From Terramyces sp. JEL0728 (lineage: Eukaryota > Chytridiomycota > Chytridiomycetes > Rhizophydiales > Terramycetaceae), in NCBI GenBank assembly GCA_027603945.1, contig JADIIU010000132.1, positions 1 through 34,399 on the forward strand: a stretch of 34,399 nt of DNA. The letters run 5' to 3'. The first letter of the stretch is position 1, and every line of letters starts with the position of its first letter. A program made the translations under genes and the position numbers. Below, piece after piece: positions 18,431 through 20,210 of the stretch. The notes beneath the pieces are model-generated. The model saw only the letters and a program-made list of their open reading frames with translations, had not been told where the DNA came from and made no database searches.

Positions 18431-19952
18431 TTAAAGTTTGGCTTTAAACATTTCCAAAGAATACTTTAACTCTTTCAATGAAGAATTAGGTATCCATATT
18501 TTAAACAACTCTTGTAAATCTTTTAAATCACCAGCCAACTCTTCATCTTTCATGATATTTTCATCACCAGTAAGTTTAGCCATCATCCAAGGCAAATTGA
18601 ATGGATTTGTCTTGTATGGGGCTCTGAATTTTACCGAAATTTCGTCTTGATTTGTATCCCAGAGTTTGTTTTGCCCCATTATCCACGATAAAGATACGTA
18701 ATAAGTATCAAGTTCTTCATAGATGGCTGAATGGCCTTGCGTACCAAAACCATAGATATTTCCAGCCACATAATCACTTAGTTGCGTGATTAAGCCATAA
18801 TCCGTTAAGCCCTTGTTTCTCAATTTCAAACCAAATACTACTAAATGAGATAAGAAGTCTGGCTGGTAATCTTGTGCATGGATATATAACGCTCTGTATA
18901 CATTTGGATGATTGATACCTTGCAGAGTTGCAGAGTATAGTGGGACCACTTGATCATACCAACTGCCTACGGCGGATATCCTTACACCTCTACTCAGTAT
19001 ATATTCTAAGGCTACGTTAGGAACATTAACCTTTATAATATGCGGTAGTAATTGTTGCACTGGGATCGTTGAAATCAAACAATTGCTTGGCATTTTCATT
19101 TTCCACATACTTAATAACCAGACTTTGTTTTAGGTTAGGATATGGCCCATGGGATATACCAGCCATTGCTAATATTAGCTTTATCTACCTAATTATCAAT
19201 AATTACTTACCCATCAATCCGGTTCGTTGTTTTTTGGGATTGATAATCTTGTTTTCAATCAACCGCTCAATAATCATAGCAGACACAGGAGTACCTTGCG
19301 AATGAGCAACAAATAAAACTAAATCGGCTTCTTGTAACTTGTCCAAATAATTATTCAACTGCGAGTACAGTAATTCCACTCTATCTTCTATTTTACCTTC
19401 ACCATTCAGTGATATTAGAGATAAATCTTCAATTTGAATGCCGTTTCTTTCTTTAAAGTACTTGATTGTAGCTTGTTGCATTTTGTCTGCAAAATAGTCT
19501 GAAGTTCCGACAGGTTCGCCTACAATCCTGTTAAACATTTTATTCGGAAACCACCTGGTACGTTAGTTCCTCTGTACCTTATATTAGCCAGATAAATACC
19601 TAGGCATTAGCAATCCAGCTACCTAGGTCAGATCCACGGTTACCTAAGAGTTAAACGCTTAATCCTACCCATGCACACCGACAATCGCAACTTTCTCCAC
19701 ATCAAATCCAGTCTTTTCCTGCTTTACTTTATAAAAATAATTATAAATTCGCTGCAGAAATCCAAGTGGCTCTTGAATCTTTAATTCCTCAATGTAATTG
19801 GGCAGTACGATATTTTTAGGTCTTTTTTTGAATTCATTTGGGTCGCCATTGTATTTGAAATCGTTTTCGTTCCAGCTGTAGCGTACTTGAGTATGAGGTT
19901 TTTTCATTCTCTTCAAATGTCGAAGCATTCGAGATGGAAAAATGAAGGACAT
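18431..19952 (-). CDS. YML020W-like alpha/beta hydrolase-fold protein
   Basis: This is a fungal family of predicted serine hydrolases with unknown substrate. Intervening sequences are at 19555-19668 (114 nt), 19169-19210 (42 nt) and 19012-19030 (19 nt). The spliced 1347 nt encode 448 residues. Family blocks run continuously across the junctions: VAIVGVHG joins WFPNK, then GEPVGTSDYFADKM, LNGEGKIEDRVELLY, the nucleophile elbow VAHSQGTP (Ser about 180), AMAGISHGPYPNL, DQVVPLYSATLQGI, LRNKGLTDYGL and GHSAIYEELD. Two of the three intervening sequences are head-to-tail stacks of mini-introns. A hydrophobic stretch lies just before the chosen ATG (19952), with no in-frame Met before a TAA, so an extra N-terminal exon carrying a membrane anchor is possible. 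The stop overlaps AATAAA. Confidence 0.87.
19169..19210 (-). other. Two mini-introns stacked head to tail
   Basis: The 42-nt intervening sequence consists, in transcript order, of a 22-nt unit (19189-19210, starting GTAAGT, ending ATTAG) and a 20-nt unit GTAGATAAAGCTAATATTAG (19169-19188). The AG of the first abuts the GTA of the second with no exon between. Removing both joins GLM to AMAGISHG in the hydrolase family frame. Confidence 0.8.
19555..19668 (-). other. Five mini-introns stacked head to tail
   Basis: In transcript order the 114-nt intervening sequence divides without remainder into units of 25, 21, 23, 22 and 23 nt (19644-19668, 19623-19643, 19600-19622, 19578-19599, 19555-19577). 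Each begins GTA, ends TAG, AAG or CAG, and carries a branch-like element (TTTAAC, CTGAC, GCTAAT, GCTAAT, ACTAAC) a few bases before its AG. The whole lies between the Gly codon of VGVHG and the Trp of WFPNK. Confidence 0.8.
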
Positions 19953-20046: not shown

Positions 20047-20126
20047 AATTATCGAGTGGTAGTCTAGAAAGTCGTCTAGAAATATTAATTATCGAGCGGT
20101 AGTCTAGAAAGTCGTCTAGAAATATT
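20047..20126. repeat. 40-bp tandem direct repeat (two copies)
   Basis: Units 20047-20086 and 20087-20126 are identical except for one T/C difference at their tenth-eleventh base (GAGTGG versus GAGCGG). Each unit contains TCTAGA twice, in TCTAGAAAGTCGTCTAGA, so each can fold back. It lies in the 258-bp divergent region between the hydrolase and PIH1 genes. The GTCTAGAA cores are one base off a heat-shock TTCTAGAA element. Confidence 0.9.
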
Positions 20127-20210
20127 AACAGCATCGCTGAAATAATAATCGGCCAGTTTGCCATTCCGGTGTGGTTCAACTCAATTTTATTTTTTTAAAT
20201 TTACAATCTC

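Follow-up and report, generated by a model that had tools for sequence, protein, structure and literature searches.

The window analyzed here, a stretch of 34,399 nt that makes up contig C132 of the Terramyces sp. JEL0728 assembly (15.0 Mb, 231 contigs), comes from a chytrid of the order Rhizophydiales, family Terramycetaceae. Its minus strand carries an alpha/beta hydrolase gene, annotated in that genome as HDV01_001348 (protein P0001), whose coding span is broken three times; the host gene identity put forward in the original prediction agrees with the homologues, by which the gene is YMC020W-like. The gene and its interruptions lie at the following window positions:

18431..19952, minus strand: YMC020W-like alpha/beta hydrolase gene, coding span from the ATG at 19952 to the stop at 18431, with three interruptions
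19555..19668, minus strand: five-unit mini-intron stack, 114 nt (tiling, shuffles, homologue alignment)
19644..19668, minus strand: unit 1, 25 nt, GTAGGATTAAGCGTTTAACTCTTAG, GTAGGA..TTAAC..TTAG
19623..19643, minus strand: unit 2, 21 nt, GTAACCGTGGATCTGACCTAG, GTAACC..CTGAC..TAG
19600..19622, minus strand: unit 3, 23 nt, GTAGCTGGATTGCTAATGCCTAG, GTAGCT..CTAAT..TAG
19578..19599, minus strand: unit 4, 22 nt, GTATTTATCTGGCTAATATAAG, GTATTT..CTAAT..AAG
19555..19577, minus strand: unit 5, 23 nt, GTACAGAGGAACTAACGTACCAG, GTACAG..CTAAC..CAG
19169..19210, minus strand: second stack in the same gene, two units of 22 and 20 nt (42 nt); P0001 reads TGLM|AMAG across it
19012..19030, minus strand: single 19-nt intron of the same gene, GTTAATGTTCCTAACGTAG, giving AYYK|ALEY as in P0001

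Conceptual splicing yields a protein of 448 aa with 206 homologues at E ≤ 0.001, of which 120 were listed; Pfam returned no family for it. Elsewhere in the window, two tRNA genes lie on the minus strand at 1350–1509 with few bases between them, and a 40-nt repeat (TATCGAGYGGTAGTCTAGAAAGTCGTCTAGAAATATTAAY) occurs twice at 20050–20129, between the hydrolase gene and its divergent neighbor.

The 114-nt interruption, hereafter the target, admits a single GT..AG tiling with units of 14–32 nt. Each of its five units has GT..AG ends and the YTRAY-like branch element of a U2-type mini-intron, and the four AG|GT junctions are placed to act as acceptor and then as donor. Re-parsing recovered the coordinates, the strand, and the division into five units of 21–25 nt that the original prediction had proposed, with no other tiling available, as well as its reading of each unit as self-contained in donor, branch element (TTAAC, CTGAC, CTAAT, CTAAT, and CTAAC), and acceptor, separated by zero-length exons. 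Among 100,000 dinucleotide shuffles of the target with fixed ends, none tiled fully under GTA + YTRAY + AG (17–27-nt units) and one did so under GT..AG alone; chance tiling was rejected on this basis. Identity between adjacent units is 0.37–0.60, compared with a median of 0.47 for random single introns, and the target is accordingly, in agreement with the original prediction, not a simple tandem repeat.

Taking out all 114 nt joins VGVHG|WFPNK in frame, and GVHGWFP stands at this junction in all six outside homologues aligned from among the 120 listed (P0004, P0005, P0006, P0009, P0052, and P0058). The gene is coding and conserved on both sides of the stack, and a pseudogene was therefore rejected. 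The annotated proteins of Terramyces and two Boothiomyces genomes (P0001–P0003) are without the target junction, which suggests that annotation breaks down there; in practice, stacks of this kind seem to defeat gene prediction.

Ordinary introns of this genome are very short. A gene finder run on 234 kb with neither splice signals nor any length preference up to 400 nt predicted 146 introns, of which 30 formed a peak at 19–23 nt with a clear GTA..YTRAY..TAG signal, the rest being scattered over 14–395 nt. The broad sample covered 284 kb, comprising C1:1–250000 and the window, which had been chosen for its stack. When the signal was built in and long introns were penalized but allowed up to 400 nt, 400 of the 419 introns predicted in this sample measured 18–32 nt, and the 19 longer ones consisted of 4 stacks and 15 other predictions. 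With introns >32 nt excluded, the gene models called in the same 284 kb numbered 140 and contained 391 single introns, of which 379 were 18–23 nt long. A strict YTRAY motif lies 2–8 nt before the 3′ end in 276 of these single introns, with the branch A 14–16 nt from the 5′ site in 257 and 5–7 nt from the intron end in 245.

The 15 non-stack predictions >32 nt have the appearance of merged genes or modeling errors, two of them having been inspected by eye; YTRAY lies near the AG in 1 of the 15, compared with 1020 of 14 650 random AGs (7%). For a 45-nt prediction, inspection by eye found no settled alternative. At C1:127880, in a gene that we take to be RIC1-like, a 62-nt frame break can be read neither as one mini-intron nor as a stack and is perhaps a frameshift or sequencing error in an A run. 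This case aside, the 284 kb held no credible non-stack intron >32 nt.

We searched the genome for AGGTA-N(8–14)-YTRAY-N(1–6)-AGGTA, which describes an inner unit bounded by AG|GTA at both ends and gave 98 matches vs 28 for the reversed pattern; with one extra base of any letter at the second junction, the pattern gave 21 matches and its own reversed control also 21. A chance-level frequency of stacks was one of the two grounds for abandoning it that the original prediction had named, and the counts lie above that level. Introns called in C1 and in the window enclose four and five zero-length exons, respectively, and no exon of 1–20 nt, the next shortest being 21 nt. Units in C1 scoring ≥0 abut directly (gap 0) in four cases and are separated by gaps of 1–15 nt in four cases altogether. 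AG|GTA sites in C1 with units on both sides numbered 9 vs 7.1 expected at the loosest threshold, almost no excess, and 4 vs 1.5 and 3 vs 0.9 at stricter thresholds.

Twenty pattern loci were examined individually, namely the first 20 in contig order of 55, places with chained matches having been taken earlier. An upstream unit was present at 10, a downstream unit at 9, and both at 7, against a C1 background at the same threshold of 24 upstream and 110 downstream units at 370 AG|GTA sites, which suggests that about half of the matches are true stacks; the remainder may be chance matches or single introns beside exon ends in AG and GTA. The 284-kb sample contained only 5 stacks, one of them in a weak gene model, and in C1 alone the 349 introns yielded two stacks, with a third standing in a weak gene model.

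From part of the 98 matches and from gene-model calls, we assembled by hand a catalog of 25 stacks with 2–9 units each (105 units) and lengths of 41–198 nt. Left off the list were weaker chains (L035, L038, L039, and L042), two-unit cases (L064, L066, and one at C1:92376 with a weak gene model), and second copies (L046, L056, and L060). Gene models called 19 of the 25 whole, three in part (L026_c, L026_m, and L041, completed by eye), and three not at all (L027, recognized by eye in open frames, L034, and L059). The longest, L027 on C91, has nine units in 198 nt between flanks that are open in one frame. An eight-unit, 165-nt stack at L026 on C128 lies in a coiled-coil-like gene and includes five identical 20-nt copies, a kind of array whose copy number the assembly may miscount; its removal, completed by eye, gives NEK|VKKEDEMQ. 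Within this stack (bases 1781–1945 of L026), the unit GCAAGTAGCAATCTGATCCGTAG starts with GC (GCAAGT..AG) and is apparently a GC–AG mini-intron. The locus as a whole (G000:C128:20900–24200) holds five stacks of 3–8 units each, over two neighboring genes on opposite strands.

Strict YTRAY occurs in 75 of the 94 stack units examined (25 first units and 69 distinct later ones), and in these 75 the branch A lies 14–18 nt from the 5′ site and 4–8 nt from the end, near the values of single introns; because stacks were found by the signals later judged conserved, the argument from conservation is to some extent circular beyond the 284 kb, and the search pattern itself contributes to the GTA bias of later units. 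T at position +6 is present in 19 of 25 first units vs 28 of 69 distinct later units (Fisher p = 0.0045), with single introns at 222 of 391. The excess in first units could mean ordered, 5′-first removal, or that first units are ancestral.

Protein homology bears on whether stacks leave the mRNA. In the proteasome alpha-6 gene (L050, C30:14748–14828), the stack comprises four units (81 nt), of which three are identical; taking it out gives RSQ|VQRA, and the joined 100-aa piece aligns without gaps to solved alpha type-6 chains (E 8.8e-44). The pyruvate carboxylase stack (L031; two units, 42 nt) leaves GGGGR|GMRVV, with the alignment ungapped at the junction. At L041, in a gene that is presumably phosphatidylinositol synthase-like, five units (105 nt) leave VTDR|STTACLL inside PF01066 (CDP-alcohol phosphatidyltransferase), residues 5–110; a 53-aa piece of this gene matched no Pfam family and no solved structure, and a longer piece matched PF01066. 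Pfam was run on 8 of the 13 host proteins of stacks. Matches span the stack in an EXS protein (L028), a GST_N_4/Tom37 protein (L040), a TPR protein (L033+), a WD40 protein (L033-), and a LisH protein (L038, outside the 25); a PH_TFIIH match runs across the stack of a TFIIH p62-like protein (C1:242503) below the Pfam cut-off, and the Pfam domain of L032 lies outside the stack junction. Removal of whole stacks from the mRNA is, on this homology, well supported.

The origin of stacks left clearer traces in some arrays than in the target. At least one adjacent unit pair with identity ≥0.8 (ends excluded) is found in eight of the 25 stacks, at five loci, four of these stacks lying at L026 and the others at L027, L028, L050, and L054; overall, 17 of 80 adjacent pairs reach this identity vs 4 of 1500 pairs drawn at random from single introns. 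Two gene copies, on C37 and C56, are identical at 495 of 501 ungapped columns (98.8%, 6 substitutions) and differ by one gap of exactly 21 nt, with five units in C37 and four in C56, which is direct evidence for gain or loss of one whole unit. Copy pairs involving C18 and C100 have equal unit numbers, the C60 pair has no called stack, and the assembly has no second copy of the target surroundings or of nine other stretches, so that unit numbers were compared at few loci. Near-identical duplicated stretches, either haplotypes or segmental copies, are a feature of this assembly (C37/C56, C18, C60, and C100, all aligned), and equal kinase matches on C3, C26, and C42 mark further ones; such stretches lend themselves to comparing unit numbers.

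Given the near-identical neighbors and the one-unit difference between gene copies, the best reading is that exact tandem duplication of whole mini-introns is probably the main source of stacks, rather than the repeated insertion at AG|GT junctions that the original prediction had offered as a possibility. We regard as doubtful the alternative in which unrelated mini-introns, or an introner-like element, inserted repeatedly at AG|GT and are now removed stepwise, a scenario that differs in origin only. It draws on the 17 stacks lacking an adjacent pair at ≥0.8 and on the target, whose neighbors are no more alike than random singles; yet eight stacks do have near-identical neighbors, the sole difference in unit number observed is an exact tandem copy, and ordinary single introns show no strong AG|GT context, the preceding exon ending in AG in 85 and the next exon beginning with GT in 25 of 391 cases. 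As the target units are as unlike as random introns, no trace of duplication is left in that diverged stack and its history is unreadable. The notion that stacks reflect chance, assembly error, or pseudogenes can be given very little credence: assemblies can miscount tandem copies and parts of this one are duplicated, but no shuffle tiled fully with the branch motif required, the excess is genome-wide, and conserved genes recover their frame.

Our preferred reading, to which we assign a probability of roughly three in four, is that the target consists of five complete U2-type mini-introns joined at AG|GT, and that stacks are mainly tandem-duplicated and spliced unit by unit. A copy duplicated from GT to AG would itself be spliceable and would carry no cost in the mRNA. 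The spliceosome would span ∼15 nt from the 5′ site to the branch A and 5–7 nt from there to the AG, and units would be removed singly by intron definition, each removal regenerating an AG|GT junction that could serve as donor for the next unit. Duplication of a unit would be harmless because every removal path, in whatever order, would end in the same mRNA, and duplicated units could then drift apart while selection kept their internal splice signals. A competing reading, which we find improbable, is that the first donor and the last acceptor are used in one step to remove a block of 40–200 nt, the inner signals being relics of duplication. The final mRNA would be identical, so that homology does not discriminate between the two; near-identical units in eight stacks may be young, with inner signals kept by descent; and T at +6 is more frequent in first units than in later ones. 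Against one-step removal, the only non-stack case >32 nt to consider in 284 kb is the RIC1-like frame break, so that long introns do not seem to be customary for this spliceosome, and the target and many other stacks have diverged like unrelated introns, yet hold GT, branch element, and AG at the usual spacing, signals that relics should have lost at such divergence. Two observations argue for unit-wise removal: credible plain introns of greater length are lacking, and signals persist in stacks that have diverged.

A broader proposition seems to us fairly likely: that intron arrays form a system throughout this genome, in which complete ∼20-nt introns multiply in tandem in a minisatellite-like manner, up to nine in a row, each copy being recognized on its own and removed by serial zero-exon splicing. 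The splicing RNAs of such a mini-intron fungus deserve attention. A canonical U2 snRNA is present in the genome (140 bits), and a U1 search gave no match, with a control unable to judge U1. U6 was represented by two near-identical weak matches (27 bits, below cut-off); in the U6 core search the 3′ part had no match at ≤1 mismatch, and the search for an interrupted core gave one unconvincing match.

The question of how spliceosomal introns multiply has stood for a long time, and the mechanisms put forward have mostly been inferred from old events. In Terramyces, intermediate states coexist: introns standing alone, tandem copies that are identical, stacks that have diverged, and two gene copies one unit apart. 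If our reading is true, these arrays offer a view of spliceosomal intron gain as it happens, by a route that is neutral and variable in copy number. They also probe the physical limits of the spliceosome, both in choosing one 20-nt intron with the neighboring donor and acceptor 0 nt away and in whether it can process eight or nine introns successively.

Several known arrangements invite comparison. A stwintron, as defined in the literature on this family, has an inner intron that interrupts one splice element of the outer intron, whether donor, branch, or acceptor (PMC7138796, PMC9024468). Stwintrons and complex fungal intervening sequences, as described there, would share with the present stacks multiple U2 introns, consecutive reactions, and intron definition (PMC7138796, PMC9024468). 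Nesting fixes the order of stwintron removal, whereas Terramyces units are complete, abutting, up to nine in number, and apparently free in order. The statement in the original prediction that the target is not a stwintron holds, each unit having its own donor, branch, and acceptor in a single tiling. Animal ratchet points and zero-length exons, in the sections that treat them, likewise use AG|GT as acceptor and then as donor; animal recursive splicing, however, is described for large introns (PMC2773006, PMC5126111), whereas Terramyces has ∼20-nt introns in arrays apparently growing by duplication. The very long host intron that characterizes recursive splicing has no counterpart among the 25 stacks, with their 41–198 nt.

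Ciliates offer similarly extreme shortness, Terramyces being a fungus, in the parts of the literature that concern intron size (PMC9505925, PMC2633312, PMC5014332, PMC12862383): introns measure 15–16 nt in Stentor (PMC9505925), and 21–29 nt in Nyctotherus and 20–33 nt in Paramecium (PMC2633312). The relevant passages of three of these papers (PMC2633312; PMC5014332, a survey of ciliates; and PMC12862383, on Paramecium bursaria) describe no stacks. Synthetic two-intron constructs in yeast, in the passage describing them, retain an exon between the introns (PMC8496845). In the Terramyces/Boothiomyces literature, the portion of PMC11210171 consulted uses "intron" only within a company name.

Among the open-licence PubMed Central papers that the literature searches retrieved, none presents tandem zero-exon mini-introns in its title or in the opening of its abstract, which is in keeping with the earlier suggestion that no equivalent had been described. 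Intragenic minisatellites are made of tandem, near-identical units whose number varies between copies. The likeness is evident in the ∼20-nt near-identical tandem units of 8 of the 25 stacks and in the difference in unit number, and does not extend to the target. Unlike a minisatellite, every repeat unit in Terramyces is a full intron, and many arrays are built of unlike units.
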